NCBI GenBank assembly: GCA_958450365.1
Contig: CAUEEP010000933.1
Coordinates: 1,426,001 to 1,490,000 of the forward strand
Source of the DNA: Mesorhabditis belari
Lineage: Eukaryota > Nematoda > Chromadorea > Rhabditida > Rhabditidae
Direction: 5' to 3'
Length of the DNA: 64,000 bases
Part shown: in pieces, positions 620 through 59,700 of the stretch
Layout: every line of letters begins with the position of its first letter
Numbering within the stretch: the stretch's first letter is position 1
Notes under the pieces: model-generated
Databases searched by the model: none
What the model saw: only the letters and a program-made list of their open reading frames with translations
Told to the model about the DNA's origin: nothing
Translations under genes and position numbers: made by a program

Positions 620-1135
620 TCGTTAATCTGGAGCTCACAAAACATTTCTAGGCAATCATCTCAATGAAAACAACAAAACGCCGTCTCGACGTCATTCCAC
701 AGCAACCTCGCCGTGACTCAGAACCCATTCCCGCATCAAAAACAACTCTTCCTTTCCATCTGATTCACCGACCTGGAGCTCACAAAGCATTTCTAGGCGA
801 TCATCTCAATGCAAGCACCAAAACGCCGTCTCGACGTCATTCCACAGCAACCTCGCCGTCACTCAAAATCGGTTTCCCCTTAGAAAACAGCTTTTCTTTT
901 TCATTCGATTCATCAATCTGGAACTCACAAAGCATTTCTAAGTGCTTATCTAAACTGCAGCGACAAAACGATCATCCCGGATTATTTCACAGCAACCCAA
1001 CCGTGCCTCAAAATCCGTTTCCACTTCGAAAACAACTCCTTTTTCTGATCTTATTCATCAATCTGGAGCTCACAAAACATTCCAAAGTCATTTGCAAGAT
1101 TTCCCTTTCGGATTTGTGTGATGATAGAGAAGAGA
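620..1135. repeat. 145-bp tandem array carrying one CTGGAGCTCAC box per unit
   Basis: About 3.5 diverged units are present. The box CTGGA(G/A)CTCAC starts at 628, 773, 918 and 1063, exactly 145 bp apart each time. It is the reverse complement of the GTGNNNTCCAG motif seen in other parts of the window. Other shared text includes CACAAAGCATTTCTA and ACGTCATTCCACAGCAACC. Confidence 0.9.
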
Positions 1136-1711
1136 CACTTTTTAGGAGAATGACGTTTTTTTAAAGGCGAAAAATGCTGCATTCTGCATTTTGCATGAAA
1201 GAAAAAAGCGATAAAATTGATAAAATCCCCAAAAAATCGATCTTTAAAATTTCTATAATCACAATTTCTCTAAAAAAAGTGGCAAAAAATATTTACAAAA
1301 ATGTTGCGGAATTTGAAAAATTTCAAAATAGCAATGGTCTTTTGTACAGAAAAGGTAAATGATTTTTTTGCAAATATCGATCTAGAAGGCGCAATCGATC
1401 GATTTGACTAGACGATGAGGAAAATCTGAAAGAAAATTCTACTTTTTTTTTTGATGGGATTTTATAATTTGTCTTTATTACCGTAGCCCGATTATGGGTA
1501 TTTTTATAGATTTGTTCTTTTCCTTTTTTAATTATTTCTTTCGAAAGTGTGCATTCCAGATAGCATAGGAAATGGTAAAAAGAAAAGGGAATGTTTTTGA
1601 GAAGCGAGAAAAAAAAGCTTGAAGAAAAAAAAAGCTTTGATTCTCATCAATCACTCTTAAAATCTCCTTCAATTATCGTTTTGTTGTCTCTAAAATGCTC
1701 TTCTATTTTCA

Positions 1712-8344: not shown

Positions 8345-8834
8345 CACACATACCTCAAATCTGAATTGAATCAAAAACACCGGCAAATCAAAGCAAAAAT
8401 CAAAGCTGTGCGCTCCAGAAGAAAAGAAAAACAAAGAAATGAGCAGGGAAAATGGGGAAATTTTGTCGAAAAACGGTCAAAGTCGATTGAGCGCCTTAGT
8501 CAAAATTCGCGATTAGCTCGAGTTTTTAAAATTTAGCCTTTGAAATCTGATGTGCGTTCCAGGATTTACAAAAACGTCAAAATTTTCTTGGGAAACCATT
8601 TTTCACGCGATGAAATTCGATAGAAAAGCGACCGACTACAGACTACAACACTACAAAAAAAGTGCAAAAGATGGAAAAGAACGGCTTTTTTGAGGAGCAT
8701 GCGTGCCAGATTACCCGAAAAATAAAAATATAGGCAATGAGTGAGAGAAATTTGTGCAAAAAAACGGTGTGGCAAAGGTAACTGCTTTCTAAAAGATGGG
8801 AAATTGAAAAAGCCACCGTACTACGGTAGTTTCT

Positions 8835-9487
8835 CATCTACTTAAAAAAACCGAATTCACCCATTCTAATGCCGTCAACTTCTTTCGTGACATCCAGATA
8901 GATGATTCGTGAAATAGGACTACCGTAATCCCTATTGTCAAGTAGAACTAGACTAGGGATAGATTACGGTAGTTTCCGAATTACTTTAGAAAACTGAATT
9001 CACCCATTCTAATGTCGTCAACTTCTTTCGTGACATCCAGATAGATGATTCGTGAATTAGGATTACCGTAATCCCTATTGTCTAGTAGAACTAGACTAGG
9101 GATAGATTACGGTAGTTTCTCAGCTACTTTTAAAAACCGAATTCACCCATTCTAATGCCGTCAGCTTCTTTCGTGACATCCAGATCGATGAACCGCGAAA
9201 TAGGATTACCGTAATCCCTATTGTCTAGTAGAACTAGACTAGGGATAGATTACGGTAGTTTCTCAGCTACTTTTAAAAACCGAATTCACCCATTCTAATG
9301 CCGTCAGCTTCTTTCGTGACATCCAGATAGATGATCCGTGAAATAGGACTACCGTAATCCCTATTGTCAGGTAGAACTAGACTAGGGATAGATTACGGTA
9401 GTTTTCCAATTACTTTAGAAAACTGAATTCACTAATTCTAATGTCGTCAACTTCTTTCGTGACATCCAGATAGATGATTCGTGAAAT
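8835..9487. repeat. 143-bp satellite, about 4.5 units
   Basis: Units are highly similar and strictly 143 bp: TACCGTAATC starts at 8921, 9064, 9207 and 9350. Each unit holds one GTGACATCCAG box (8887, 9030, 9173, 9316, 9459) and a hairpin (TACCGTAATCCCTATTGTCT with ACTAGACTAGGGATAGATTA). No open frame is conserved. Confidence 0.95.
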
Positions 9488-9809: not shown

Positions 9810-10190
9810 TTCATTCGTTCTGGAATGCACTTTTGTTAGTTAGCTCAATTTTTACCCTTATTGTCTATAGGATTTCGATTTGGGTTACTGTAGCCGATGG
9901 TGTTCATCGAGTTTTATGCTCGAATATGTAATAAAAAGGGATAACTTTTTGTGTAGAAGTAAATCCTGGAAGTCATTTTGTCGATTGGCATCATTTTTAG
10001 GCTTATTGTCTACAAGATTTCGATTTGGGTTACTGTAGTGGATCGGGTTCATCAAGTTTTCCAAAAAACCACTCAATAAACCAAATAATTTTCTGCGATC
10101 AATGAGTGATCTGGAAGTCACAGAATCCATTCCCAACAAAAAGAAATACTCTAATCCCTATTTCCAACTAGACTAGAAACAGCTGAGCAG
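9810..10190. repeat. Left arm of large inverted repeat; array with 145-bp spacing
   Basis: The CTGGA-type box starts at 9820, 9966, 10111 and 10255 (the last just outside the arm). The arm is a near-identical reverse complement of 11800-12155, sharing for example AGTTAGCTCAATTTTTACCC and AATTTTCTG...GATCTGGAAGTCACA. Exons 1-6 of the fucosyltransferase-like gene lie in the loop. Confidence 0.85.
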
Positions 10191-10549
10191 GTTCATCAAG
10201 TTTTCTAAAAAACCATTCGATAAATGAAATAATTTTCTGAAATAAATGAATGTTCTGGAAGTCACAGAGCTTATTTTTACGCTTACTTTTCGAGAGTAAA
10301 AGGAAATAATTATTGAGGTGTAACTTTGAACAAGGGAAGGCATGGCAACGGACAGAACGAGTCTATTTCTTCCCTGGATAGTCTTTTTCTTCCCTACTCT
10401 ATTTCTTCCCTATCAAAGAGAAAAAGCTTTGCCTTTCTGCTCATTTGGCTTTCAGAAATGTGACATTTAATTTGAATTGCATTAAAATGCATTTTAAAAA
10501 AAAGCTGAATTCCAGGTATTCTTCTTCAGCGGCTTCCACATCCGATTTG

Positions 10550-13500
10550 ATGATTACAGGATGGAAAAATAGCAGGTAATTGGCCGAAAGCATGGTTTAT
10601 TTCCGCTAATGCCATTCTTAGCATACCATTCTCAGCATCCCATTCTCAGCATCCCATTCTCAGCATCCCATTCTCAGCATCCCATTCTAAGCATCCCATT
10701 CTTAGCATCCCATTCTCATCATCCCATTCTCATCATCCCATTCTCAGCATTCCCCTTTCACTCCCCATTTTCAGACATCCAATCCCCACGTTCACTCCGC
10801 GTCTCCCTCCGCGTCATTGTTGCGGACTGGCGCTCGTGGTGGCTCTATTTTGCCTATTCTACCTCTTCTTCACACAAAATGATTCAACTGAAACGGAAAA
10901 TAGTCAGCCGTGAGTTTTCTAGAGATTCTAGAGATTCTAGAGATTCTAGAACAATAGAGAGAAATCGCTTCGACCCGATTTGTCAAGTTAAACAAAAATT
11001 GCAGAATTGCTTGCTTTTTTTTGACCCATATCCTTTTGTGACCTCCAGCTTGTCGATATTTTTAGATATCATCTGCCTCCGAGGCTTCCCGTTCTGCGAG
11101 AGGTGTTGAAAAGTGACGAATGGGAGAGCGACGAGGGGGAGTCTGGTTAGTTGGATTCTGTTGCCTAAATCGATCAAAAATGTTTAGTTTTCAAGAAGAA
11201 TGAGACAAAAGACGTGGAAGTTGAAGCCAAGAAGCTTTTAACGAGTTTTGCAAAGACGAAGCTTACGAAAAGCACGCCGATGTCAGGGCCGATGTCAGGG
11301 CTGAAGTCAGAAAGTGAAGGTTGGGAAAAACCCTGAATCTTTTCGCTTTATTGGCTTTCGTGCGCTCCAGGATTCGTGAATTTTCAGCGAATTGCTCGCT
11401 GAAGTTTCTGTTCGCCGATTTTCACGCGTCAAAATACGGCGGAGGGGTGGGTTTTGATGATTTGAATAGAAAAATTTCACAAATTTCACAAATTCTAAAA
11501 ACTTTTCTAAAAAGTTCGTTTATTAACTGAATATCTTTTTTTATTTCTCTTTTAGGTCGGAAATTTCATGTTTGAATGGATTTCGTTTCTAGGAATCGCA
11601 AAAACAGTGAATCGGTGAGTTTCCTAAAAAATGCTCTTTTCTACCGTAATCTGTGTCTAGTCTAGTTGAAAACAGGGATTACGGTATTTCTCTTGTCGGG
11701 AATGGATTCTGTGACTTCCAGATCACTCATTTATTTCAGAAAATTATTTGGTTTATTGAGTGGTTTTGTGGAAAAGTTGATGAACCTGATCAGCTGTCTC
11801 TAGTCTAGTTGAAAGAAGGGATTACGGTATTTCTTTTTGTCGGGAATGGATTCTGTGACTTCCAGATCACTCATTTATCTCAGAAAATTATTTCATTTAT
11901 CGAGTGGTTTTTTGGAAAACTTGATGAACCCGATCCACTACAGTAACCCAAATCGAAATCTTGTAGACAATAAGCCTAAAAATGATGTCAATCGACAAAA
12001 TGACTTCCAGGATTTACTTCTACACAAAAAGTTATCCCTTTTTATTACATATTCGAGCATAAAACTCGATGAACACGAACGGCTACAGTAACCCAAATCG
12101 AAATCCTATAGATAATAAGGGTAAAAATTGAGCTAACTAACAAAAGTGCAATCCAATTAGACGATCTACAGTAGTACAGATCTACAGACGATTTTAGTTT
12201 ACGCACAAATCTTAGGAAACGGATTACGGTAATTTTTTCAGAATCCCCGCGCTACACGTGCGAAACGATATGGTGGCGTTGATGTTGAAATGGCAAAAGA
12301 GATTCCCGAACATTCTCGACACCACCTCGATCAAGCTTTTGGTGAGTCCTCTACGCGATCGGAGTGTAAACGCCGGCCACCTAGCACACCTGGAACAGTA
12401 TAGCAAAAAAGTCCATAATATTCTCTGAAATCAATCTCAAACGCCGACGTGACTTCCATAATTCCCGAAAATCAACTCGAGATCGCTTGAAAAGCTTTCA
12501 AGAGCGCGTAAACGCTTCCGATCTAGCACACGGTGGTTATGAGATTGCCTGATTGTTTAATTTGCTTAAAAAAAAAAGCTTTAAAATTATGTGGATTGAT
12601 TTTTAAGCAATAAAAAGCAAGAAAGCCTTTTATTAGCAATGAATTTTGTTTAGAGATCGGAAGTCGACGTGGAGTTTCCATATTCGGGTTGTTGCCGGTA
12701 CAAGTCGCCGAAAAAGATTTACAAAAAGTATGCGAATGCGACAAATGTCTTTTCGAGAATGGTCTATATGCAGGTTGACTTTAAAATCTTATAGAAATGC
12801 TACCCTAAAGTCGCGAGTATAAGTTCTGTTTGGGGTTTTCGTATGCAAATTGACGGCTTTGTCTGCAAATTGTCTCCGGTGCGGTGTGTCGAGGGTTCGA
12901 AGCCCGCTGCAGCATAACTTTTTTGGGCTTTTTGAAGAACAATAATAGAAGTCAATTTATTGAGGTTTAATAGCAATTTGTTGTTGTTTGTTGTTGTTAT
13001 TTGTTTGTTGCTCTGGGCGTGGCTCGGCCCTAGCCCTGGCCGTGGCCCTGCTCCTCTCCGGTGCTCAGTCTTATGGATCCCTCCCTGGCCTCTTCATCTG
13101 TCCCTGGTCTCTTCATCCGGCCAAAGTCCACGTCGACGGATAGGGTTTTAGGCTGATTTGTTTGCAGAAAAATGATTTGAATTGCACTTTTGCATAATTG
13201 CACTTTTGACCGAGTAGCTAGCATCGCTGGGGCGAATGACGAGAATTTCCGAGGCGAATGACCCGGGTTCGAGTCCGGTCAGAGCTATTTTTGCTTTGCT
13301 TACATTTCTGCTTATAAATCCTCTTTTAGAGCTATTTCTATTTTAACACGGCTTTCACGCGGGACGAACTCGTCGACTTATTGCGCTTTCACGATGACGA
13401 CAAAAAAGTGGCACGATTGGAGCTGGTTGAGGCCAAGTACAACATCAACAGCACGCACAAGTTTGTGAAAATCATTGAGGGATGGGGTTGGGTGCGTTCC

Positions 13501-15142
13501 AGGACGGGAAAAAATGTAGGATTCAAGTAAAATCGGGGTACTGTAGCAGGAGAGAGGGTGTGGTGACGATTTGGGTTACTGTAGTGGTGTTGTATTTTAG
13601 GGGTTAAGCTATAGAACAAGTTTGAGCAATTGGGTGCGTTCCAGGAAAGGGAAAAATCTAGGATTCAAGTGAAATGGGGTACTGTAAGTAAGAGAGAGGC
13701 CGTGGTGACTGTAGTGATCGGAAACTGTTGCGTTGCTTTGCTAAATCTCTACTCCATCTAGCGAATTGCAGTGTCTGTGTGCACATTCGTCGCGGGGATT
13801 TCGTCCGATCGACTCTCCATCAACACTCGACCGAGGAGTTCACCGCCGAGTCGATCCGTTTCGGGGTGGAGTACGGTAGAGGTTTTCAAGAATCAAGCCA
13901 TGTAGGCCAGAGCCAGGGCCAGAGTCAGAGACAGGGCCAGAGACAGGGCCAGGGTCAGGGCCAGAGCCAGAGACAGGGTCAGGGCCAGGGTCAGGGCCAA
14001 GGTAGGCCAGACCTCCAGCAGTCAAGTCAAGCAACCTATGCATTTCCAGCAAAAACCCAAACGAATCGCACAGTGACCGCGGTGCTTCTCGGCAACGATT
14101 TACCCTGGGAGAAGAAACTTATCCAAACGGTGAGTGCAAAAATTAGAGATCTGGACCTCACAGAACATTTAGCAATCAAAAAAATTACTAAAATTACTAA
14201 AATTACCAAAATTCAAAATTTCAGCTCGGCGACCTACCGTACCCTGTGCTGGCGGCGAAACAAAATCCGGCAAGTTTCAAGAAAATAGACGACGCTCAGG
14301 CTACCGTATCTCGAATTTACTCAATTTTTGAGCTTTCCAGGACCACTGGCCGCCGCACATCGATTGGATTTTCGCGCAAATCTACTGTGACACCGTGATT
14401 CTGACGGGTGAGTGCGCGAACAGACTGCTCGCTTTTTTCTCGACATTTTTACGCAAACTAGCAAATTCTTTCGCTTTCACAGCTCAATCTGGAGTGCATG
14501 TAGGCTACTGAAAAAGTTTCAAAGTGAAAACACCGAAGTTTCAACAAGTCGATATTTCAAAAATTCAAAAATGTCGTAACGCTTTGGAAACGCTCAGGAA
14601 CGCTTCTGATCATCCTGGTGACATCCAGGATGATCAGAAATAGCAAAAAATTCACATATTCTCTTGGCGGAAATCGAGTTTTCCGAGCCGGTTTAGTTAC
14701 CCAAGTCGGAGCGTCGCCGGTTTTTCGGGAAAACCCCTGAACGACTGCTCAATGCTCAACTGTCCCATTTTCAGCTTCCGCTTCAACATACGGCTGGTGG
14801 TTGGGCTATCTCTCGAGAGGCGATCAAGTGCTCTACAACGCGATTTACTCAAAGAAAAATGGGGTTCGAAAATTTTGTGATTTTTTTCAAATTTTTCGAT
14901 TTCAAAATCTCGCGTGACATCCAGGAAGCCGAAAAAAAATAATTGTTAAACGCCGAAATTCTCAGGTGGAGCGCGAGATGGACGAGGAGAAATTCTGGCC
15001 GAAACATTGGCAAAAGATTCATCAAGATGCGCAAACGAAAAAGATCTCAATTGTCAAGACGACGACGATGAGGACGATGAGGACGACGACAACGACGACG
15101 ACAACGACAAAGCCAAAGCCAAAGCCAAAGAAAAGGGCTTAA
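10550..15142 (+). CDS. GT11 (alpha-1,2-fucosyltransferase-like) type II membrane glycosyltransferase
   Basis: Fifteen exons in phase give about 479 aa: 10550-10575, 10775-10909, 11066-11145, 11188-11319, 11388-11446, 11556-11614, 12242-12341, 12654-12773, 13330-13486, 13762-13875, 14050-14129, 14225-14269, 14341-14407, 14775-14863, 14966-15142. A short basic N-terminus leads into a signal anchor (CCGLALVVALFCLFYLFF). GT11 motifs follow: GGGVGNFMFEWISFLGIA (usual GGLGNQxFQ), VCVHIRRGDF (GDP-fucose binding), AVLLGNDLPW and SASTYGWWLGYLSRG (usual STFSWWGAYL). GT11 enzymes act in the Golgi, adding fucose to galactose-ended glycans. The tail is Thr-rich, then KPKPKPKKRA. Intron 12 has a GC donor (14270). 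The exact substrate is unknown; nematodes carry expanded GT11 families. Confidence 0.87.
10616..10755. repeat. 14-bp tandem repeat (CCCATTCTCAGCAT)
   Basis: About ten units of CCCATTCTCAGCAT in intron 1 of the fucosyltransferase-like gene, each with a pyrimidine-rich TTCTCAG that mimics an acceptor. The true acceptor is TTTTCAG at 10774. Confidence 0.85.
11690..12155. repeat. Right arm of large inverted repeat in intron 6
   Basis: Reverse complement of the arm at 9810-10190. It carries the motif in forward orientation at 11711, 11855 and 12000 (spacing 144 and 145) and a decayed copy at 12146. An open frame over 11837-12091 equals one on the minus strand of the left arm, but it shows no known domain. 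Confidence 0.85.
13205..13287 (+). other. tRNA-like sequence in intron 8 of the fucosyltransferase-like gene
   Basis: A clear B-box (GGGTTCGAGTCC, about 13265-13276) is followed by CGGTCAG that can pair with TTGACCG near 13206, as an acceptor stem would. The anticodon arm is not convincing, so this is more likely a tRNA pseudogene or SINE head. Another B-box-like GGGTTCGAAGCCC lies near 12893 in the same intron. Confidence 0.4.
13898..14010. repeat. 6-bp repeat (CAGGGC/CAGAGC)
   Basis: About 17 hexamers of CAGGGC, CAGAGC and CAGAGA type within intron 10. The coding-like frames on both strands are artefacts. Confidence 0.85.
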
Positions 15143-31175: not shown

Positions 31176-32417
31176 CTTTTTTTCAAATCCTGGATGTCAA
31201 TTTAGCGGCCAAGTTAATGTCGATCCCCCAATCGAAATGCAAAGTAGAGAGACTGCAAAAAATGATGAGAGAAATATCGCGAAAAAGCAAAGAGGCTTTC
31301 AGTCATCCAAAGCTTTCAGTCTTTCAGTCTTCTCTGATCTTCTCTGAGCTTTTCTGAACTTTTCTGTCTTCTCCGTCTTTTCCGTCTTTCGAATCTTCTT
31401 TCCTTTCCCCCTCCATGCACACAACCCACGCGAATTCTCGAGTACCCAGAGACCCTAGTGGATTTGAGACACCTCAACAAATTTCTCACTCATCCCCACA
31501 TTTCCATCGAGTTTTTTAACATCCAGCTTTAGCAAATTTTTTAAAACATCCAACTTTAGCAAATCAAATCGATTTTCCCCTTTTTTCCAAGCAATAAACT
31601 CGATTTTTGCTCATAATCTCTGTTTTTCCTTGTCCACTTCGTTTAGCTTCTTTATTTTTCCGAGATTTTAAAGTTTTTGCATTTTTTGATTGATCTGGAA
31701 TGCATACTGTAAAATAAAGCTGTAAAATAAAGGGTTTTCTTTGAGAATTTGACCTCGACATTTTGCTCGTGTTCAAGTCCTACTAGGAAAATGAAACCGA
31801 AAACGGTTTTTTGACGAAATCTCTAAAATAAATCTTCTTTCTGGAGGGCACACCGTAATCCGAGAAACTTATTTCGAGTGTTTTTTTGATTTTTCGAAAA
31901 ACGCAAAAATCGATGCTTCGGGACTGATCGATTTTCTCGACACTCCGCAATTTTCTCCAAAATCCACCCACACATTTGGCGATGCTGGAGCGCAGGGTAG
32001 CCGAAGAAAAGATTTGGATATGTGTAGGGGTCGTTTCTGGAAGCTGGAGGGAGAAGGGGGGCGCCCCACCCCAACCGATGGCAAATAGAGATTCTTCCCC
32101 TCGGTCCTCACCTCTCGTGCACTCCAGCTTCACCGAAAATCCACTCCAGTCTGCCCAGTCCTTCATTACAGCAGCGCTGGATAGGTCTTTTCCTTTTCTT
32201 TACTCTGCACACATCCCCCTTTCCCCCCTTCGCCACCCCCATTTTCTCTTTTTACTCAAAGACTCTCAAAGCTTACTTCTCAAAATACAGTACCACTTTT
32301 TGGGTTTTAATTTGGATTATCGTAGAGCTACGAATCGATTTCAAAAGATAAAGTAATAATAAAAATCATATTGTTTCTGACTATTTGGACATGGAAAATT
32401 GATGAATCTTGTACTGA

Positions 32418-32629: not shown

Positions 32630-35600
32630 ATGTCCGACGCCGAAGAGTCCTAGTGAGTTTTGAAGATTTGAATTTGAAATTGAAATTGGTTTTGGATTTG
32701 GATTTGGGTTTGGGTTTGGATTTGGGTTTTAATTTGGATTCGAATTTGGATTCGAATTTGAATTTGAATTTGAATTTGAAATTGAAATTGAAATTGGAAT
32801 TGAAATTGGAATTGAAATTAGAAAATCTAGGATTTAGAGTGAGAATGAAGAAATTTCGCACAAAACATTGCTCATCAATTTTTCAATTTTTCTTGGCCAT
32901 TGAATTGGTTACTTTTTTTCAATTTGAACCAAAGAAACAGGAAAAATGAGAACCATTCATTTCACTAGAACCCAGGTGTACAAAGGACATTTGCAGAGGT
33001 CTAGAAAGTCTAGCTTAGAGATTTTAGATGCTAGGGCTAAGCTAAGCTAAGCTAGGGCTAAGCTTAGACAAGCCAGGCCAGGCCAGGCCAAGCCAAACCA
33101 AACCAAGCCAAGCCTAGCCTAGCTTAGCCAAGCCTAGCCAAGCCAAGCCTAGCCTAGCCTAGCCTAGCCTAGCTTAGCCAAGCCTAGCCAAGCCAAACCA
33201 AACCGAGCCCAGCCTAGCCAAGCCTAGCTAAGGCTAATCAAGAATGGACTTATTTTTGTCTCAGGCGATTCTATCAGAAACAAAACAGCGAGTTTGGTCC
33301 CAATTTGATTTGGCCAGCTTTCGACTAAATCTATTGGGTTGGGGAGAATGAGTCGGCGCCGAAAATGAAAAAAATGTCTAAAACTTCAATTCGACTTCGT
33401 GAAATAATATGCGTTTGATATGAGTAGAATGGTTAACGAATTCTCTACAAAATGACATTTAAAAGAAAATTCAAACAGCGCCTCCGCTCAAGAAAAAGCC
33501 ATTTTTTCACAAAAACTACAAACTGTCATCTAGAAAAAAACCATTGGTGGGATCTTCCTGCAAATTTGGCAACTTAAGTAATTGAATGTGCTCTATCTTT
33601 TTTATATAAACACCAAAGAAGGTTTATGTGAAAGAAACTGTTCAAATGATGAGTCGGACTCTTTGCCATTTTAACCAGCTGCGTTTCGAAGTTCATAAAC
33701 TCCACGAAAGAAAAGCTTTGTGGAATCTCTCAAAAGTGATTTTGTAGAGAAATAGTGGATCCTTTTGATGAAACCAAACGTATGTTTAAAAGAAGGCTTT
33801 ATGTGTGCAAAAAGTCCCTTTAAAGTTTGGCGCCGACTCATTCTCCCCAACCCAATAGCTTGTCGTTGAGTTGACAAAAAAGGTCAAAAACTCGTCGGGG
33901 ATTCGAACCCGCGACCCACCGACCGACCTACCGCTTCCCAGGCAAATCCGTTAACCATTACACCAAAAGGCAACTGATCGCCTTTCCTCTAGAGGGAGTT
34001 AAGTTTTGAGGGAGAAGCCTTTGTTAGCTCAGATTTTGCTTGAAATCAAGCTCAACAGTCGAACATCGACCCTAAAAAGGTGCCTCAAATTCTCTGCGTA
34101 ACTGCCCAGAGCGGCCACTGTTTGCATTGGGGTTGGGGGAGCTACGCAAAAATTTTCAAAAATTTTTTTTTAATTTTAGAATTTTAAATTTTTTATATCA
34201 AAATTTAAGAAAATTTAAGAAAATTAAGGAAATTTTTTTTTAGTTTTTACTTTTTTTAAAAAACATTTTTATTAAAAAAATAATAAACCACTAATAAAAT
34301 TTCTATTTAAATTATAGAAAAGCTTGATGATTTCTCTATAAAATCGCTTTTTAGAACCTCTAGAAGCCATTCTAGAGCCTTTTTTTGAACGATTTTTTAA
34401 AGATCGATCACCAAAAAAACCGAAAGTCTTAAATTTTAGCTTTTTTTTTTTTTTGAAACAAATTTTTTTTTTTTTTTTCGCTTCAATTTAAATATAAAAA
34501 GATAGAGTTTATTTGAATTAAAAAAGGCTTTAAAATTCGATTGAAATTGAAATCAATTCGATCAACCAAGCTAGAAAAATTCCAAAAAAAAAAAACAAAA
34601 TTTTTGAACGATTTTTTTTCGTTCAACTTGAGCTGACTTTTTTCCATCTTTAAAGAACAAAATTGTAAAGATCTCTGTGCTTAAAATCCTCTTTACAGCG
34701 AAGAGGAGGAGTACGAGGAGGAGGAAGTCGAAGAGGAAGTCGACGAGACACCAACAGCCGTTGAAGAGGAGAGACAAGCGTAATCATTTTTTTTTGTTTT
34801 TTTCGTCTTTTCTTTTCACCGAAACTATTCCGTTTTGTCGTGTGACCTCCAGAACGACGGAAAAACGGAAATTAGCCTTAAATTCTCGACAAAAACCGTG
34901 AAAATCGTTGAGAACTTGAAATCACCAAATTTCACACTAAATCTCTGATAAAATTCCACGAAAAAACAAGCACATATTGCACAATTAAAATTCTTTAAGC
35001 TTTCCACGACTTTCCTAAATCTAGCCTAGACGTCTAGATGTTCTAGAAGTCGTCTAGACGTTCTAGAGGTCGTCTAGAGGCTCTAGAAGCCATCTAGCCG
35101 TTCTAGAAGTCGTCTAGAGGTTCTAGAAGTCGTCTAGACGTTCTAGAAGGTCGTCTAGCGGTTCTAGAAGTCGTCTAGAGGCTCTAGAAGCCATCTAGCC
35201 GTTCTAGAAGTCGTCTAGAGGTTCTAGAAGTCGTCTAGAGGTTCTAGAAGCCGTCTAGAGGTTCTAGAAGTCGTCTAGACGTTCTAGAAGCCAGCTAGCT
35301 GTTCTAGAAGCCGTTTAGAGGTTCTAGAAGCCGTCTAGCCGTTCTAGAAGCCGGCTAGCTGTTCTAGAAGTCGTCTAGACGTTCTAGTAGTCGTCTAGAG
35401 GCTCTAGAAGCCGTCTAGACGTTCTAGAAGCCATCTAGCCGTTCTAGAAGCCGTCTAGCCGTTTTAGAAGCCGTCTGTTCTATTGTTCTAGCCACTTTCA
35501 GCACTTTCTTTCGAGTTCACCTCAATTTTTATGCCTTTTCAGCGTTACCCGGTACGTTGGAAAGCATTTTCGGGCCTCATGGCACGCACCAGGGAGTTTA

Positions 35601-38376
35601 AAACCCCCGCCAACATGCAACCAAATCGCTAAATGAATGACCGCCCCCCAGCTTCGACCAGATTCCTAACGCTGCTTTGCCTGGCTGCCCACTGCTCACT
35701 GCTCACTGCCCACTGCCCACTAACCACCCCCGCTTTTTGCCTCAAAATCCCTTGTGACTTCCAGATTGGCGAAAAAGAGCGAAAATTTTAGCCCAAAAGT
35801 CAACTACGATGATGGGGACCCGAGTTTGACCGAGGCCGAGAAAGCGATGCTGGTCGGTTTTTGAGTTTTTCGAGATTTTCTTGTGCTATTCTTTCTTGTG
35901 ACCTCCAGATCGAAGGTTAGACTTAAAATTTCTAGGCTGCGAAGAAGCGCCACGAAGAGGACGACATGGCAAAGTTGCACGACTATGAGAGTAGGGATTT
36001 TTGAGTTTTTAGCAATTTTTTATATTAAAACTAGCAAGATTTGAATGTAATGAATATGAGAAAATTAAAATTTACAGGCAAACGCAAAAGCGAGCGCGAA
36101 AAAGAGGAGGAAGAGTTGAGGTGAGTTTTTTTGGAGATTATCCATTTTTTAGAAAACGCTCAAGTTGGGTTACGGTAGTTTAAGTGCATAGAAACAAGGA
36201 GAATTTCCTTTTTTTCCAGGAGAATGAAAGAAAAACAAGAGGAACGTCGAATGAAACGCGAGCAAGAAGAGCGCGAAGCCGAGGAAAAGCGTCGAGCAGC
36301 CGAGGAACGCCAAAAGGCCGAGGAGCAAGAGCGCCGTTCGAGAATGGAGGCCGAACGCCAGAAAAAGGTCGGTAAACGTTGGAATAGGAAACGAGGCTAG
36401 CTATTCTGGAAGTCACCCTAGTGAATGAAGTTTTAAGTTTTTGGATTACGTGAAGAAATAGAGCTCAGATTTTTTGGAGTGTCAGAATTTTGACTGAAAT
36501 TTTTTTTCAAATTTTAACTCAAATTTTGAGTAATAAATTTTTCTCATATTGAATAAAATCATTTTTTTAATGCTTGCCTAGCTAGTGTGACTTCCAGAAT
36601 GTAGAAATAAATTGAATTTGAACTCGATATTTCAGGAGGATGAGAAGAAAAAGAAGGCGGCCGCTTTGATGGGTGGCTCCTTCCAAACGCAAGGTGAAGG
36701 CGGACGGTCGGTTTTTTGAATTTAGCGTCAAGCCTGCCTTCCAGATAGGCTTTTCCAAAAAGTTTATAAGCGAAAAGAGCAAATGCTGGCGCTAGAATTA
36801 GCTTGATTAGGGAGGATTTGAGTTTTTCAAATGTTTCAAGCGTTTCAAAGTGTTTAAAGCATTCGATTTCAGAAACTTTGTCATCCCGAAGAAAGCTTCA
36901 ACCGATGACAAGTTTGGAAACATTGTGCAAGCGAAACAAGAAATGGGAATGACGAAAGATCAGCAAGAAGACGCGAAAAAGGTTCAAAGAGTTGACAAAT
37001 TGGCGAATCGGCAAATTAACGAATTAGCGAATTGGCAGATTGTCAAATCGGGAAATTGACGAATTGGCAGATTGCCAAATCGTTAAATTGGCGAATTGGC
37101 AGATTGCCAAATCGTCAAATTGACAAATTAGGAAATTGGCAATGTGCCAAATCGTCATATCGTCAAATTAGCGAATTGGCAGATTGCCAAATCATCAAAT
37201 CGTCAAATTGTTCATCATCAAATCGCATCTTTCCCCATTTAAACAACTCCAATCCATTGCGTGACCTCCAGATTGAAAACGAAAAAGCAAAAAACCCGTT
37301 TTCCAGAATTTCCTGCGCTACCAACGCGCCGAGATCGAAGCGATGCCTGGTGACAAGAAAGAGACGATCAAGGTTTTCGAAGATTTCCCATTCTTTTCCT
37401 ATTTCGTGACTTCCAGATTTTACATCAACGCATTTGCAAGCTCGAAGCTGACAAATTCGATCTAGAAAAGCGTCACGAGAGGCAAGAGTATGACGTAAGT
37501 AAAGAAAAATATTTTTTTTTTGCGAAATTTCGATTTTTTTTCTTTAACCAAACGATTACGTGACATCCAGGATAAACAAAAAAAAAGAAATCTCCGCATT
37601 TCCACTCGTACTTTTCAGCTGAAAGAGTTGAACGAGCGTCAACGACAAGAGCAGCGCAAATTGCTCAACAAGAAGGGCACCACCGACGACACTGGCGGCA
37701 GACATCCTGTAGGCTTTTGGCTTTTGAAAGCAAAATTGTTTACGCTTGATTTTTAGCCAAAAGTTCAAGTGGCATCGAAATACGATCGACAAATCGATCG
37801 ACGAAATTTCAAAGAGCGCCGCGCCATGTTCGAGCATGTGAGTAACAAGCAACAAAGCAAGAGAAAAGAGAAAATCATTTCTGGAACGTTCTGGAACGCA
37901 CAGCACGAAATGAGCTTAAAATTTCGGCATTTAAACGAGTCTCTCACTTTTTTTCAATTCAAAGCTCAGAAATCAACAATTGAATTTTTCCATTTTTTTG
38001 AAAAACACTTTTCAACGATTTTCAAGTCACTCAAAATCCCCTGTGACATCCAGATTGTTGATTTCTGTCAAAAGTTTCAAGCTAATTCTTTTAAAATCTC
38101 CGAAAATTTGAATCGTTTCAGAAAAACGCATACCCATGCTTCCCGGGAGTGCCACCGCCGCCAGCACTTCTCGAGAAAGTGATCAAGAAGTTGCAATACG
38201 AGATCGAGAAAGAGGAAGAGGAAGCCGAGCAAGCAGCGGCCGACGCCGAGGACGAGGAAGAGGAAGAGGAAGAGGTGAGAGGCGCTAGAATCTAATTCAA
38301 GTCTGTCAATCTGTCAATTGAGTCAATTCAAATTCAAGAAAGAAAAAAACAAACCCGTGTCTATTTGCAGGAGTAA
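32630..38376 (+). CDS. Troponin T
   Basis: Fourteen exons in phase give about 354 aa: 32630-32652, 34699-34779, 35792-35852, 35936-35990, 36078-36120, 36220-36367, 36636-36706, 36873-36981, 37307-37372, 37417-37494, 37619-37708, 37757-37837, 38122-38274, 38371-38376. An acidic N-terminus (EEEYEEEEVEEEVDETP) is followed by DPSLTEAEKAMLAAKKRHEE, a long charged helix, NFVIPKK, DKFGNIVQAKQEMGMTKDQQ, then the conserved core LHQRICKLEADKFDLEKRHE, QEYDLKELNERQR and the nematode-type tail NAYPCFPGVPPPPALLEKV ending in poly-Glu. Troponin T anchors the troponin complex to tropomyosin on thin filaments of body-wall muscle. Intron 1 (2 kb) carries several repeats. Seven introns contain GTGNNNTCCAG; in one the box itself is the acceptor (37406-37416). 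Confidence 0.95.
32665..32825. repeat. 6-bp repeat (GAATTT/GGATTT)
   Basis: About 25 hexamers of GGATTT, GAATTT and GAAATT in troponin T intron 1. The open frame across it (FNFNFKFKFKF on the minus strand) is an artefact. Confidence 0.85.
33035..33240. repeat. 5/10-bp repeat (AGCCTAGCCA)
   Basis: AGCCT, AGCCA, AGCTT units in troponin T intron 1, related to arrays at 7757 and 31005. Confidence 0.85.
33334..33855. mobile_element. Mariner-like non-autonomous element
   Basis: Terminal repeats TTGGGTTGGGGAGAATGAGT and its complement, with GGCGCC just inside, are each flanked by TA (33332-33333 and 33856-33857), the target duplication of Tc1/mariner elements. Size 522 bp. I see no transposase signature inside. 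It lies in troponin T intron 1. Confidence 0.85.
33885..33985 (-). other. tRNA-like sequence
   Basis: On the minus strand, TGGTGTAATGG (33965-33955) fits an A-box and GGGTTCGAATCC (about 33910-33899) a strong B-box. The distance of about 45 bp suggests a variable-arm or extended tRNA-derived element. The acceptor stem does not pair well, so a pseudogene or SINE head is likelier than a working tRNA. It starts only 30 bp after the mariner-like element. Confidence 0.45.
35025..35475. repeat. 20-bp minisatellite (GTTCTAGAAGTCGTCTAGAC)
   Basis: About 22 units in troponin T intron 2. Variation is confined to a few sites (GTC/GCC, GAC/GAG/GCC/GCT). Each unit carries TCTAGA-type palindromes, so single strands could fold into many small hairpins. 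There are no spacers, so it is not CRISPR-like. Confidence 0.95.
36995..37215. repeat. Minisatellite (AATTGGCAGATTGCCAAATCG)
   Basis: Six or seven units of about 27-36 bp in troponin T intron 8. Each holds the self-complementary TTGGCAGATTGCCAA, which can form a hairpin. Confidence 0.85.
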
Positions 38377-50544: not shown

Positions 50545-52311
50545 CAAAGAAATGAACTGCTTTACGATTTACAATACTGCTTTTATAAAACGCATAACTG
50601 AATAACTTTTTACTTATTGAAATGCTTGTTTACGGTATTCAGAATTACAAAGACAACCACGATTTGTGAAAATTGCTAAGAATTCTATAAACTAAATAGC
50701 ATAATGGAACTTTTTGGCGTCATCGATCAAACGAATGGTTGTTTTTCATATTTACACCATTAAAACAAAGATCACGATCAAGAATGTAGCAATAGGAGAA
50801 AGGAAAGAAAAGAGAAAGTTCAAGGAAAGAAAAGAGACAGACTCCCTTGCGCTCCTCCACCCCACCCAACTCAGTCTCTTAAATCAAATGCTTCCCCCCG
50901 AGTTTCTCAGTGATTTCTCTCGTCGTGAGTTCCAGATTGTCGATCCCCCTCAAAAAAAACCCTTGCCCCACCTTATCTGATCGCTTTTGGGAAGTACGAG
51001 AGTTCCCCTGTCGTCATGCGATTCTCAAAGTTGCCAAAATGTCTTATTTTGTTTCCCCAAATCGCTTATATGCCTTCCAGATTGCAGTAAATCATCACGA
51101 TTTTCGATCGTTTTCTTTCATTAAGTCGAGATTTTTGCGAGTGCGTGTTTCGCTGATCGACTAGTGCAAAATTATCACTTTTCTAACTGCTTTCTGAATA
51201 ATTTTTTGGTTTTTCATGTGATCGCTGGCTTCTAAATGGTTTTAATCACGTAAATATGTAAATTTATATATAAAAATTTAATTTTAAAGATATTCAGCTG
51301 TTTAACTGAGTATCTAAAGATAGAGTTTTTGTAAATTTAAAAAGTTTTCCTTTAGAAATTTTTCGCTTAAAAATTTCTAAATTTCTAATTTCTTTATTCA
51401 TTTAAAGATATTCAGCTGTTTAACTGAATATCTAAAAATAGAGTAATTTTTTTAAATAAAAATTTTTTATTTAAAAAAATCATTTTCATTTTTCATTTTC
51501 ATTTTCATTTTCATTTCAATTTTTCATTTTCATTTTCATTTTTCATTTTCCAAATTTCTTCATTTCTACAACTCGAATGACATCCAGCTTGCGCGAAAAA
51601 ATCAAAATTTTAACGTTTTCTTGAAATTTTACTCAATCTTTTGCGTCATTCTCAATTCAATCCGTTTCTCGATCGATTTCTTCAATTTTTCTTTTTTCTC
51701 TCACCGATTTTTCATCTTTTTCACTTTTTACAATGCTTTTTTTTGCTCTAAAAGAAAATCGAGCAATAATGCACAGGTTTTGTTGTAGAGTGCTGGCACA
51801 GCTCTTCTCTTCCCTGCGTTCGACTCTTCGGTGAACAGCCTCTACCCCTTTTCCCCCCGATTTATCACATCAACGCCACCGGCTTTCCCCTTCGTGCGCT
51901 CCAGCATTAAGATTTTAGTGAATAACTTTTTTAAAACTTGCTTCCACACTTTAAAATCGGCTTGTTCTCGTTTGTCGAATTGGTCTGATCGAAAAGCCGA
52001 TTTTCTGCAATAACCTAATACTCTTTTTGTTTTTATCTTGCCATGTGCGTTCCAGTTTTCAGATTTATAAGCTCAAATTTGTGATTCCTTTGTTAAAAGG
52101 CATCTAAACTGGCACCATCTCTTTCTCAACATTTTCCCGATCGAATTTCTGAATATTAATTGTGCTTCAATGGGTCAGATTTCAAATTCGATTCCAGAAA
52201 ATAGATTTTTGTGATCGAATTTCAGCGAATTCATTTTGGATACGGGTTTTATCGATGAGATTTTTTTAATGCTCTCTACAAATTTGGTTCCTTATCTCTA
52301 GGAATTTATTA

Positions 52312-52895
52312 GGTGTGTGAAAAAGTAATCCACGTTTTTTATTTTTATCTGATCACCAAGTAAGACGCTGTCTTCTCGAAAACCCTCGTTCAACCTCTTC
52401 AGAAATAGGCCTTACATTAAATTGTGATGGGTCAACCGTAAGGAAACGCTTGAATGCCATTAATTTTAGCAAAAAGTTGGACAGCAAATGGATACCGCAC
52501 GAACGATAACGCGCGACCATATGTCTCTTTACAGACTCGGCAAAAAATCCAGAGTGTTGGATGGGAGGGTTTTACCACATCCACCTTATAGTCCAGACAT
52601 TTCTCCATCTGATTATTATTTATTTTTGTCTCTGTCTAACTTTTTGGCCAATTTGGCCAATTTGGAATTTGGCCAAACGGTTCAATTCCGAAAAAGATGT
52701 CAAAATCGAGGTTGATCTTTTCTTCGCTTCTAAGGACCAAGATTTTTATTATCGTGGAATGTCTTTACTTATAGAACGTTGGCAAAAGGTTCTCCTTTCG
52801 AATGGTGATTACTTCGTTGAATAAAAATTATTTTAACGAAACTTATGGTCCTTTATATTTAAACGTTAAAAACGTGGATTACTTTTTCACACACC
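52312..52895 (+). mobile_element. Mariner element with internal deletion
   Basis: Perfect terminal repeats GGTGTGTGAAAAAGTAATCC (plus ACG) with TA on both sides (52310-52311, 52896-52897). Inside, an N-terminal piece of transposase shows the helix-turn-helix region (STVRKRLNAINFSKKL then WIPHE), and then the frame jumps to the C-terminal catalytic motif HPPYSPDISPSDYYLF. The central part of the gene, with the first catalytic residues, is gone. At 584 bp it is less than half of a full mariner and cannot encode a working enzyme. Confidence 0.92.
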
Positions 52896-53265: not shown

Positions 53266-53794
53266 TCGACTAGTTCTCGATTGTTCGATGCTTTAAAAAC
53301 TCAACTTCTAACCATTCTAATCCAATTTCTTTTCTTTAAATATCTCTAATCTCGAAGGCTCTCAATCAAATTTTGACAATTTTAAAACATTTTGACAATT
53401 TTAACAATTTTTATCGTTCATTGATAATGATTTTATATTCTGATGACGTCACTATTAAGATCGTGCCGATTGCTCAAAGAATTCACGAGAATTCCCCGAT
53501 TTTTCGATCTTTTCTTTAAATTATGGATATCATATGAGAAATTGAATATGACAAAAAATTCGATAATTACTTTTAAAATCAACCACCAGACTTGAGTCGA
53601 GTTGGGTAACTAAACCGACCCGAAAAATCAAATTTACATTAAAAGACAATTTTTATTGTAAATTCTGGATGTCACTTAAGAAATTGGATCAATAATATGT
53701 TTCAGTTCTTGCTTTTTTTTGATTTGACCTTGTTTACTTGAGTTGGGCAACTAAACAGACCAGAACTCGATTTTCAGCTTCCTCGCTCTCCTAA

Positions 53795-56700
53795 ATGAGC
53801 AGTGCAAATGTTCGAACGGATTGTTTCTTCAATTTAAGCACTGAGGAGCGAATTGATTTGTTTAAGGTTTTGCTTGATCGCTTGATGACAATGCTTTTTC
53901 TCTAGAGGAGACGCTCGCTGCTGCTTGAAACGGTCTACCGGCTCTACTATGGGAAATTGATGCTCCCAATGGCAATGCTGGGTGTCATCCTGACTACTCT
54001 ATACCTTGGTTTGTCAAAAATCGACATACAAAAACATCGACATATTAGGGTTACTGTAGCAGGAGCACAATTTATCAGATTACAATAATCTGCGATTTTT
54101 ATTAGCACATAGTCTGCTGTGCGTTCCAGAAAAAGCTTAGATAAAGTTTCTAGACAATAACTAGAGCTAAGTTAAGCTAAAACCCCTAGGATACAGTATC
54201 GAGTTCATAAGTTCATCTTGGGATTACGGTAATGATCCATTTTTATTACCACTCTTTCTTCTGTGCATTCCAGAATACTCATTTAAAAAGTTTTCAACTT
54301 AACAATTCGCATTCTTCGCGTAAAACATGCAGTCTTTAGCCTCCTCCTACAAAGCGATTTGCTCGCGACGAGTTTCTCGTAAATGCTACGTTCTGCTATT
54401 CAATCGAGCGATTGGCGATATTTTGTCGTGTCTCGTCGCGCTGGCTACTGTAGTCTATGTGCTGTTCGCGCACGAAGTCAAGTGAGTGAGAGGGGTAAAG
54501 AGTACTGTATCAAAGAAGATCTACAGTAGCTACAGATCTACTATAGCTACAGTATCTAGAGATCATTAGTACCAAAATCCTATAGCACCAGTAGTTTTGT
54601 AGCTGGCTTCAGTAGTTTAGAGTATTGTAGCCATAGCAGGGTTCGTCGTCTAGAGAGCACTGTAGCCAAAGCCCGGCAGTCTGGAGTACTGTAGTTGGGA
54701 TCCCATAGACTATAGCGACGGGTTAGTAGGCTAGAGACGAGAGTACGGTAGAGTTCAGTGGTATTAGAGAATACTGTAGCCACAGCAGAGTCCAATAGTG
54801 ATTAGAAAGTAGTGTAAGTACAGTAGGAAAGACGAGTTTAATAGTTAGGACCTAGTAGTACTCAAGAGTTCTAGAGTGCTGTAGCCATGAGTGTTAGAGT
54901 ACTGTAGCTATAAGTCCTTGAGTACTGTGTGCGCACTATTGCACTATAGCTACAGTTGTTCGGCTCTCATACTACATATTGTACTGTAGCCATAGTCGAC
55001 CTACTGTAGCTTTCCCTAAACAAACACAAACCCCACAAATTTCCCTAACCATTCTCCATCGTGATATCCAGGATGACATCTTGCACCAAAAGCCACTCAA
55101 ATTTTCCAGTCGTGATGTCGTTTTCCTCTTCGAGTCTTTCTTCATCGGCTCCTTTTGGTCAGCAATGGTCTCCTACACGTGTTTATCGATGCTGAAAGTT
55201 TTTTTTTTCTTATCAAAGCTCCATAACCAACCATTCTTTCAGTTGTACGCTGTCTGGAAACCGCTCGACTATCGTCGGATGATCACGATGAAGCGATGCA
55301 TTTACGTCATCGTTTTCAGGTGTAATATGGAATTTTTTTTGTCAAAATTTAACTTTTTTTGGCCAATTTGGAATGCAGAACATTGATTTACGTCAAAAAA
55401 TTCTGAGCTTAGATCAGAAATAAATTTTTCTCCCGGTTCATGGCTACATACAATAAATGAATCGCTTGTTGCATGCTCTAAAAAAGTAAAAACCCAAAAA
55501 TGCAATTTCCGGTTGCAACGCCAAAATTACATTTAAATCTTTGCCCAGTAACATCAGCATTTATATCAGTTATATAGATTTTGACGTGAGGGGGCGTGGC
55601 TTGGCATCCTGGCGAGGCTCTGCCATCCTGGCTTGGCATCCTGGCGAGGCTCTGCTCTCATTTTTTTCAATTCAAGAATTTTTATAGATCCAAATTTGCA
55701 ATTTAAACTAAAATTCGAATTCGTTTTCTATTTTAGAATTCAAATTCGTTTGCATATCAAGATTTCAGCTGGCTAATGTTTATGGCGATTTGTGTGATCA
55801 CGCTTGGGGTGACCGCTCTTGTCAAAGTGCCAACATTGAACGACTGGAGTGGGTGAGTGAAATCTAGGAAAAACAAAGCCGAAATTCAGCTCAACACCCC
55901 AAATGCCCTCCAGAACGCCGATTTTTGCCAAAAATAACAACGTTTATCGGAATTTACTCAACATTTCGACCCATTCTCAAACTAGCTGCTAATCTTTCCC
56001 AATCGCGCGTAAAACTGGCGTGCGCTCCAGAAACACCGTTTAACTTAAAAAATATTGAACTTTGTCGTAAGATACTCGAAATTTCAATCCATTCTCAAAC
56101 TCACCGCTTACCCCTTTTTGCTAATCTTTCCCAATCGTGCGCAAAACTCGCCAAAAGCTGGCGTGCGTTCCAGAATCACCATTCAACCTAAAAAATATTG
56201 AACTTTGTCGTAAGATACTCGAAATTTCAATCCATTCTCAAACTCACCGCTTACCCCTTTTCGTCAATCTTCCGCAATCGTCCTCAAAACTCGCCAACCA
56301 CTAAAGTGATCTCCAGAATCACCGCTTAAATTAAAAAATATTGAACTTTGTCATAAGATACTCGAAATTTCAATCCATTCTCAAACTCACCGCTTACCGC
56401 ATTTCCCCAATCTTCCCCAATCATACTCGAAACTCACCACCCACTAGCGTGACCTCCAGAAGCGCCATTTTTTATTTTCAATTTCAAATCTGAATAGCAT
56501 TGCGCGAGGCACTAGCTTGGTCCGAAATTTTCAATTTCACTCAAACTTTAGCTGCAAAATGGAAACGTGTCTACGGACGATGTACCGAACACGGAATTTC
56601 GCGACCGTTTGCATCTACTTGTGGACGATTTTCGTCTTTATCATCACAGGTAGAGCTGTAATAGTTGAAAAAATTTTGAAAAAAAAGTTTTTCAAAATCT

Positions 56701-59700
56701 CCGCATAACTTTCATTTTCAATTTTCAATTTTTAACGTTATAGAAAGTAGACTTCGGAAAACAAAACTTAACCAAAACCAAAACCAAAACCAAACCAAAA
56801 CTAACCAAAACTAACCAAAGCTAACCAAAACTCGCCAATATCTCGTGATTGGGAGGAGCTAGCGAAAATCTGTTTGCAGATTTGAAATCAGCGTCCAAAA
56901 ATCTATCCAATAGGCTATTTTTTGTTTCGAAATTTCGAGGTCGTGTTTTGGTCCTTTTTTCGGCCGCCAGATTTTGGGGAGTGAGAAAAAGTGAAAGGCA
57001 AATTTGCATTTTACATTAATATTTGCACTTTACAATTTTAAAATTTACATGTTAATTTATATGCAAATTGGGTTTTGGTTTGTTTTGGTTTTGGTTTTGG
57101 TCTGTTTTGGTTTCGGTTTTGTTTGCCGAAACTCTAATAGAAAGGTTTAATCGGCTCCAAATTTCATTTCCATTTCATTTCCATTTCAGTGCTTCTCATA
57201 AAACGAGCCGAGGCATTCAGCAATTCGTTTAAAACCCGAGATTATTCCACGTCATCACAAGAAACGACAATGACAATGAAAACGATAAAACAACAAAGAA
57301 ACGGCATGCCGAGGGCACGGTTTGTTTATTTATTCTACAGAAAGCTTCTACAGAAAGCTAGAAACATTACGCTAAAAACTACAATCCTACTTGAGACAAG
57401 ATTACGGTAGTTTTCGGGAAAAAAGACACACTTTATTTGTTCATCGTCTGAAAAGCTACAGTAAGATTAAAGTCGCTTAAACGCCACAAATTCACTTTTG
57501 TTTACTTGTGTGACTTCCAGAAAAGCGATTGGCTTCAATTTTACCGTATCCATGGCCACTACAGCCTCTATAAACGGCCGAACTAGGTTTATCAGAGCAC
57601 TGTAGACACCTGGTTTACCAGAGACACCAGCTCATCCAAGCCATAGTACCCTGTGGCTAAAGCTACAGTACCCTTGTTAAATCCTACAGTAACCCATCCC
57701 TTACTGTAACTAGACACTGTGCATTAGGGTGCTTTCTAAAAAGTGCCTTTTTGCTGAATTTGGGTAGAATTTTGGTGGTTTTAAATCGCTGAAATGGCTA
57801 GCTTGGCAATAATTTTTAATTCAAAGCTCAATCTGGATGTCACAGCACTGATCTAACATAGAATTACTCGAATATTCGATTTTTGGAATTCCAGTAGAAT
57901 TCTGGTGGAGTTCTGGCGGTTTTGAGCCGCTGAAATGGCTAGCTTGACAATAATTTTCAATTCAAAGCTCATTCTGGATGTCACAGCACTGTTTTAACTC
58001 AAAATTAATCGAATATTCTCAATTTAAGAAAATTCGCCGAATTCCAGTAGAATTCTGGTGGAGTAGAGCCGCTGAAATGGCTAGCTTGACAATAATTTTC
58101 AATTCAAAGCTCAATCTGGATGTCACAGCACTGATCTAACACAAAATTACGCGAATATTCGATTTTTGGAATTCCAGTAGAATTCTGGTGGAGTTCTGGC
58201 GGTTTTGAGCCACGGAGATTGCTAGCTTGACAATAATTTCTAATCCAAAGCTCAATCTGGATGTCACAGCACTGATTTAAATAGGAATTTTTGGGGAAAT
58301 TGAAATTTTCGAGAAATTGGGATTTTATTTATTTTCCCATTTATTTTCAGATTTCCCCTTTGGAAACTCGGCCTTCACATTCTCACATTTGCCGGTTTAA
58401 ACGTTTTCTACGTGGTTTGGTGAGTTTTCCATGGCTAGCTATTCTAAAACTATCGTTTTACAATTGTAAAGTAGGCAAATCTCCGTTCCAGGTGCGTCGG
58501 TCTCGTTCTCAACACGGACCAGTGCTATTTCCAGCGAAATTACGCCGAAATGATGCGAATTTTGGGTTGTGTGAGGTGAATTGGAAAGGACATTGACGAA
58601 TTTTCGCATATGCAAATTGTTCAGGTTAACCCTCGTCTTGCGCATCTGTCTCGACCCATTGCTCTCGTTTCTCACCGATTTTCAGGTAAACACACAATCA
58701 TTTCCAACGTTATCCTGCATCCTGGAAGGCACTAGAAAGTTTGCACTAAAAATCCCGACTCTAGCGGTCAAATGGAAAAGTGGTCAAAACGCGAGTTTTT
58801 CTTTTTGATGAAAGACGCAAAATTTCGACAAGAATAGCTCATGTGCGTTCCAGATCGACCAATTTTGGAAAAATAAATGCGAAAAATTCCAGTTACGGCG
58901 TTGTTTCCTGCAGATGCTCGGTATTAAACACAAGATCTCTTTCACCTCTCCATCAGGGATTCTCAAAAGGGAAGCGTTTACGAATGAGGAATCGACTGAT
59001 GGTCAACAACATAAAAATCATCATGATCGAGGTGAGTGTGATTTAAAGCTAAATGAATCTCGAAAGGGATAAAATCGAGACAAGATTACGGTGGTTTTCG
59101 TCAAAAAAGGGCAAAAATGCGTTTTTTTATAGGATTTTTACGTTTAAATCGCCATTTGACGCAGAAAAATTTGCTGAATTCAATGATGAAAAAATTACCA
59201 AAATCCGTCTTGTAGATTTTTATCAAAAAAATCGGTATTTTATATTTTACAAACGGCCAAACTCACCTGCATTTGGCCCTTCACTAGTCGATGATAACAA
59301 AAAATTAGAAAAGGCCAGGTAGTAGACTTTGTCAAAATGTTTTCTGCGGTCATTTTGAGACCAAAATCGTATTAATTGGTCAACTCAAAAAAGAGTTATG
59401 ACATTTTGAAGAAAAAAATGACGTTTGACGACTTTCTGCGCGCTAAAACGTGGATAATACCGTAACCCTTCCCATGGCGAAAAACAAAACTACTTTTAAA
59501 GAGCGCTTGGAGAGAATTTTTTTTTTTCAGTTTGTTTTTCTTCTTTTTACGAGTTTACTTTAATCATTTTCATGTCATAATAATTGTTTCTTTTTTTCAG
59601 ATATCCAAAAATGAGTCGGCCAAAGAAACGCAGCCAAATAGGAAAGCAAACGATCGAAAACAAAAGAGAGAAGCAGTGGATGAAGGTTTTAAGCCAACTT

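Follow-up and report, generated by a model that had tools for sequence, protein, structure and literature searches.

It has long been asked whether DNA sequence can dictate architecture nucleosome by nucleosome across extended chromosome domains, and the genome of the nematode Mesorhabditis belari bears on this. The window, by which we mean the whole 64-kb stretch analysed (C708:1426001-1490000, in an assembly of 207.6 Mb and 714 contigs), holds 54 exact copies of an 11-base box, GTGNNNTCCAG, distributed over both strands, whereas 100 dinucleotide shuffles gave a mean of 0.80 copies and never more than 5. A first-pass annotation had claimed more than 50 copies, and the coordinates and spacings that it quoted for exact boxes agree with an exact-match scan, in which same-strand distances below 160 bp are 141-145 bp (20 pairs), 151 bp and 154 bp. 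Beyond that annotation, opposite-strand pairs keep the spacing, an A/T bending signal lies in register with the box, and the boxes are concentrated in domains. From the sequence, we consider it rather probable that this box is bound by a protein and maintained by selection, that its rotational setting is locked to nucleosomes, perhaps with the box at their dyad, and that it marks large domains.

The spacing extends well beyond the window. Sampled DNA yielded 153 consecutive gaps irrespective of strand, with 81 at 121-156 bp and none below 121 bp, and when listed positions were included (202 gaps) only two, of 15 and 105 bp, were shorter. The autocorrelation peak proposed in the first-pass annotation is present both in sampled DNA and among the listed opposite-strand pairs. 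To separate shared ancestry from shared spacing, boxes were grouped into families, taken as the BLAST components of their flanks with the box masked. A first set of 170 boxes fell into 95 components; for 215 boxes the number was 121 at E<1e-4 and 111 at E<0.01. The text between boxes differs between arrays, as had been noticed, and on these family counts a single satellite as the origin of all arrays, the alternative that would have refuted the annotation, was rejected. Single linkage at E<1 left 11 components, with one of four close gaps at 139-147 bp, six longer gaps that were aperiodic, and no effect; this collapse was set aside as chance joining.

Neighbours belonging to different families (E<0.01; 110 gaps) keep the interval. 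All 28 of their gaps below 260 bp measure 121-181 bp, and 16 of these lie at 139-147 bp (binomial p 8.7e-17 against a uniform 1-260 bp; 3.0e-8 within 115-185 bp), the two boxes standing on opposite strands in 14 of the 28. The 62 different-family gaps of 186-1000 bp follow a period of 158 bp (R 0.53; 0/1000 jittered sets, or 1/1000 at E<1e-4). Two side observations touch on the spacing: distances from one-mismatch to exact boxes in the sampled loci number 29 at 140-149 bp, 7 at 40-49 bp and 7 at 100-109 bp, and gaps near 325, 465 and 606 bp recur, as if 143-bp steps were sometimes stretched by about 39 bp.

Could the boxes nevertheless be the debris of an old satellite or transposon, all of them descending from one 143-bp repeat whose box and A/T pattern were inherited together? 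Most close neighbours are indeed tandem copies of each other, the ungapped identity of non-redundant flanks averages 0.290 where 0.263 is expected, and one base is preferred at a few flank positions. Such an ancestry nonetheless appears improbable, given that the spacing is kept by different-family and opposite-strand neighbours, that phased boxes occur in introns with exons between them (by eye), and that A and T are about equally frequent at several maxima of the A/T signal described below (at offset 19 from the box start A28 and T27, at offset 41 A23 and T29). Inside arrays, moreover, the box diverges about 20 times less than its flanks. Between neighbouring array units, the fixed box positions mismatch in 4/504 cases (0.8%), the internal NNN in 26/189 (13.8%) and the flanks in 1300/7560 (17.2%). 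With overlapping rows removed, 57 ordered unit pairs remain, drawn from 19 arrays; their counts are 4/456 for fixed positions and 24/171 for NNN, and 53 of the 57 have an exact partner box. Together with the different-family spacing, this divergence supports the earlier idea of a short constrained box, one to each nucleosome-length unit, amid sequence that drifts. The core is approximately GTGMSNTCCAG; the main preferences around it are for A or T two bases, and for G four bases, beyond its 3' end.

A second line of evidence comes from A/T dinucleotides (WW), whose period of 10.1-10.2 bp is in register with the box centre. The WW profile around 57 non-redundant boxes has its strongest period at 10.1 bp (0/400 random and 0/400 jittered sets), and the same period is found around the 20 isolated boxes that have no exact box within 200 bp (0/400 jittered sets). 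Maxima stand on both sides of the box centre at about 14-15, 24-25, 36 and 45-48 bp, and further out at 52 bp on the left and 57 bp on the right; a nucleosome with its dyad at the box would put them at about 15, 25, 36, 46 and 56 bp. Two held-out loci (45 boxes, 20 non-redundant) scored on the expected positions reached 0.252, the null being -0.011 with a standard deviation of 0.036 (0/1000), and in a third set, of 76 further 5' flanks, for which maxima were read without a null, they fell at 14, 24.5, 35.5 and 44.5 bp. Changes from A/T to G/C are rarer at WW maxima (141/1622) than at minima (177/1357). The phase stays coherent between about -45 and +60; it slips around -60 to -80 on one side and +80 to +90 on the other and is restored farther out, a pattern expected of linkers. 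When dyads were scored in a simple way, the highest value came at 0 to +1, with a nearly equal peak at -9; the rotational setting read from the sequence is firm, the exact dyad is not, and the predicted translational position is not unique.

The same register could serve an architectural protein that bridges pairs of boxes, forming small DNA loops of 12-17 helical turns that contain no histone core and are made easier by A/T bends in phase. Divergent box pairs, of which the assembly holds 615 at 116-176 bp, have helically quantised distances that would suit such a protein: the 38 distinct pairs among 50 listed, which come from contigs C45 to C159, cluster at 129-131, 139-143, 148-153, 158-165 and 168-173 bp, with a step of about 10.6 bp (R 0.57; 0/5000 uniform sets over 126-176 bp), and none of these 38 lies at 116-128 bp. 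The lower spacing limit near 120 bp would fit as well. We nevertheless regard loops as very improbable, since the register is strongest at the box and slips about midway between boxes, where a loop would need it, and since isolated boxes also show it.

We infer a histone octamer, a bound protein and a route of duplication, which may be combined as follows. The box would be the core of a candidate binding site for a sequence-specific protein and would be read on nucleosomal DNA, with a fixed rotational setting at each copy; it would probably lie at the dyad of a positioned nucleosome, or no more than about one helical turn away. Read in this manner, boxes should seldom be less than about 120 bp apart, should prefer about 143 bp and should occur on either strand. 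An interval of about 143 bp would correspond to neighbouring cores with almost no linker, and the average lattice of about 158 bp to places where the intervening nucleosomes lack an exact box. Once two boxes stood one nucleosome apart, recombination or slippage could duplicate the unit and so produce numerous local arrays that differ in text.

Several observations weigh against this interpretation and have to be set beside it. The 15- and 105-bp gaps both occur on contig C5, and two gaps in the held-out loci, 401 and 421 bp long, do not coincide with any step of the lattice but lie between steps. Among pairs less than 200 bp apart, 90 of 104 are same-strand, as tandem duplication predicts, opposite-strand pairs are less sharply placed at 143 bp, and helical quantisation is weak in the sampled gaps (R 0.30, n=60). 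Of 213 boxes, 63 have their best predicted dyad at -1 to +2 and 53 have it at -8 to -10, and a phase this near half a turn would be expected by chance about 1 time in 8, by our own estimate. Stretches about midway between boxes are GC-richer than the rest, which is unusual for linkers, and general 10-bp periodicity is only somewhat, and unevenly, higher in box-rich loci (mean 0.032, n=8) than in poor ones (0.013, n=10). Finally, the array-unit comparisons begin at an exact box and many are counted in both directions, while 'rich' DNA is defined by its box content and several rich stretches were chosen for their boxes.

How are the boxes distributed in the genome? The assembly contains 15,661 exact copies against 1,173 of the reversed pattern. 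Only 2 boxes were found in 140 kb from 14 stretches of 10 kb on other contigs (C4, C21, C100, C200, C300, C400, C500, C600, C650, C700, C710, C712, C713 and C714). Because of this scarcity, a mark needed along every chromosome fits poorly; the first-pass interpretation is supported in part, for the constrained box per nucleosome-sized unit. On C708, seven of ten 2.5-kb samples are boxless and the others, at 1.2, 1.6 and 1.8 Mb, carry boxes; 10-kb stretches at 1.0, 1.3, 1.41 and 1.5 Mb hold 14, 17, 10 and 11. Samples at 0-0.8 and 2.0-2.19 Mb are boxless and those at 1.0-1.8 Mb box-bearing, with a small patch near 0.48 Mb that has at least three boxes among the matches listed. On C548 (3.96 Mb), boxes occur from about 2.94 Mb onwards among the matches listed; samples at 3.0 and 3.5 Mb have none and one at 3.8 Mb has six. 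The run of boxes reaches toward the contig end on C548 and not on C708, and contigs are not chromosomes. Mapping the domains relative to telomeres by TTAGGC was uninformative: telomere-type arrays, with 2,160 overlapping matches on one strand and 1,385 on the other, are scattered along contigs including C13, C20, C30, C32, C40 and C77, among the first 100 matches listed. Some contigs look like the other haplotype of another (C159/C569, C428/C548), judging from match spacing.

From densities of 0.84 boxes/kb in the window and 1.25/kb in rich loci, box-rich DNA can be roughly estimated at 12-17 Mb, or 6-8% of the assembly. When 3+NNN+5 patterns that are frequent in rich loci were ranked by enrichment, the top twelve all proved to be the box, either as such or shifted, the box itself having 212 copies in 169 kb of rich DNA and 3 in 175 kb of poor DNA. 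Tandem Repeats Finder, run without reference to the box at periods of 120-175 bp, gave 36 rows (two pairs of which overlap) in the same 169 kb and none in the 175 kb, and 32 of the 36 contain an exact box.

We infer that the box domains may be, in the first place, a mark used in the germline, other chromosome-domain roles coming after. The leading guess is a platform resembling a meiotic pairing centre, although we hold it to be unlikely. A more general proposal, tentative and still on the doubtful side, is that of a DNA-encoded chromatin fibre, in which a dedicated protein would read the dyad box on successive close-packed nucleosomes, selection would keep box, spacing and bend across unrelated DNA, introns included, and the fibre would act as a germline mark of chromosome identity. 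The rarity of boxes in the sampled stretches of other contigs could also fit another chromosome-scale mark, used for dosage control of the X or for retention or loss in programmed DNA elimination, a process known in Mesorhabditis (PMC13370393, in part). M. belari has 2n = 20 holocentric chromosomes (PMC10456839, in part). Such a mark seems quite improbable: rich and poor DNA alternate within C708 and C548, and for this reason a whole X chromosome was dropped from consideration.

Germline use brings in a further candidate, namely that the boxes are promoter elements of thousands of tiny RNA genes, like the clustered Piwi-interacting RNA (piRNA) genes of Caenorhabditis elegans. To our knowledge, the box is not the C. 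elegans piRNA motif. Copy number and clustering are similar, and such genes could lie on both strands and in introns; C. elegans has more than 10,000 piRNA genes in two domains, where USTC orders nucleosomes (PMC11262695, in part), and nematode piRNA genes exist in both clustered and intronic modes (PMC6436959, in part). Yet in 57 aligned flanks no T or YRNT start recurs at a constant distance within about 60 bp, and independent promoters would not need a 143-bp spacing, which makes this origin decidedly improbable. A transfer RNA (tRNA) or another known RNA was rejected as the source of the box: an Rfam scan of the window gave no match, the window contains no tRNA, and ARAGORN returned two matches over 16 loci. 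Text resembling tRNA was seen by eye between some of the divergent boxes listed on C57, C60 and C159, mostly in pairs of 161-173 bp, and U2 small nuclear RNA genes form tandem arrays on C641, C286, C598 and C521, often about 1.5 kb apart (46 matches scored).

Within the window, boxes were located as exact matches, and the relations between neighbours come mostly from BLAST components. Arrays of four boxes lie at 628..1073 (minus strand, 145 bp apart, one BLAST family), 56020..56459 (plus, 143 bp) and 57833..58267 (minus, 141-142 bp), and an array of five at 8887..9469 (plus, 143 bp). Pairs with related flanks are found at 10111..10265 (minus, 144 bp apart) and 13492..13644 (plus, 142 bp). The pair at 8408..8562 (plus, 144 bp) is unrelated in sequence (flank z 0.0; BLAST components), as are the flanks at 51894..52055 (plus, 151 bp; z 0.1), while those at 54119..54273 (plus, 144 bp) are weakly related (z 4.3) and fall into different BLAST components. 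Opposite-strand pairs with unrelated flanks occupy 37891..38053 (centres 152 bp apart) and 58722..58853 (121 bp). The one-base-off boxes of the first-pass annotation are present in the sequence, the first G being replaced in each: they stand at 9966, near the single exact box 9820..9830 (minus); at 12000, as the third of a series with the pair 11711..11865 (plus, 144 bp; BLAST components); at 36734, near the single intronic box 36587..36597 (plus); and at 51070, 145 bp beyond the single box 50925..50935 (plus). Other single boxes lie on the plus strand at 1549..1559, 11038..11048, 11360..11370, 14618..14628, 14914..14924, 32117..32127, 55061..55071 and 57510..57520, and on the minus strand at 14151..14161, 31841..31851 and 53665..53675.

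One gene in the window resembles troponin T (E 9e-4) and has no Pfam match. The annotation had placed nearly all boxes in noncoding DNA; checked by eye in this gene only, the claim holds for the boxes in introns, apart from one (37406-37416) that apparently coincides with a 3' splice site. A single box at 34842..34852 (plus) is in or near the gene, and another, intronic, at 36406..36416 (minus) has its next box 181 bp away. The two intronic boxes at 35754..35908 (plus; starts 35754 and 35898, 144 bp apart) have an exon between them, by eye, and unrelated flanks (z 0.8; BLAST components). Three boxes at 37261..37570 (plus) are 145 and 154 bp apart across exons and belong to three families, an exon again separating, by eye, those at 37261 and 37406. 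The end of the middle one falls, by eye, exactly on the likely 3' splice site of a short intron (about 44 bases). The box resembles a 3' splice site, but a role as splicing element was rejected, as 6 of 8 sense boxes examined by eye in this gene lie 27-68 bases before the acceptor. Elsewhere, the window contains a WDFY2-like reading frame; two reading frames, at 3353-3730 and 52340-52870, resemble what we take to be the C-terminal part of mariner/Tc1-type transposases; and near-identical element copies (by eye) at 2710-3090 and 56730-57130, with AACCAAAACC-type terminal repeats, are likely a short transposon.

A spacing kept across unrelated DNA suggests that the packing of box-rich regions is partly encoded in sequence. 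The M. belari genome would offer thousands of natural replicates whose text is otherwise unrelated, a simple motif for mutation or probing, and, as a control, box-poor DNA of the same genome. The box could also be used as bait for a new protein of chromosome domains, and Mesorhabditis is a genus that combines programmed DNA elimination with holocentric chromosomes and an unusual meiosis in females.

Several known systems share part of these features. In alpha-satellite, the protein-binding CENP-B box is likewise kept inside nucleosome-length units, and nucleosome-positioning satellites likewise combine a unit near nucleosome length with a rotational signal. The M. belari box differs from the former in being phased outside tandem repeats as well, and in spreading over 111-121 families (215 boxes) instead of one satellite family; it differs from the latter in that more than 100 families have nothing in common but box, interval and register. 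The periodic A/T clusters (PATCs) of C. elegans are a further class (PMC7725773, in part). Their A/T periodicity, in noncoding DNA, also has a period near 10 bp; that of M. belari appears to be confined to the surroundings of the box, with which it is in register. The sequence for elimination (SFE) marks only a limited number of sites where telomeres are added, unlike a box with 15,661 copies, and on copy number alone the two do not correspond. The surveyed literature on M. belari and on Mesorhabditis DNA elimination, an incomplete survey of partial texts by which absence from print is not shown, does not describe the box.

The closest resemblances concern clustering. The HIM-8/ZIM pairing centres of C. 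elegans use a short motif (12 bases, against 11 here) in many copies clustered in defined chromosome regions (PMC9071541 and PMC8455136, in part), and the same sources report HIM-8/ZIM homologues from many Clade V genomes. Enrichment in discrete domains is found here too (54 boxes in 64 kb against 2 in 140 kb), and unlike these motifs the M. belari box is nucleosome-spaced, in helical register and intronic. Its sequence differs from that of the HIM-8/ZIM motif, as it does from the CENP-B box. The piRNA clusters of C. elegans resemble the box domains in their more than ten thousand copies, megabase extent and ordered nucleosomes (PMC11262695, in part), and differ in that the M. belari box prefers 143 bp, with no start-site signature seen at a fixed offset. 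By analogy, and as far as known, pairing-centre motifs and piRNA clusters would be the nearest functional parallels, having in common with the box not its spacing but its clustering.

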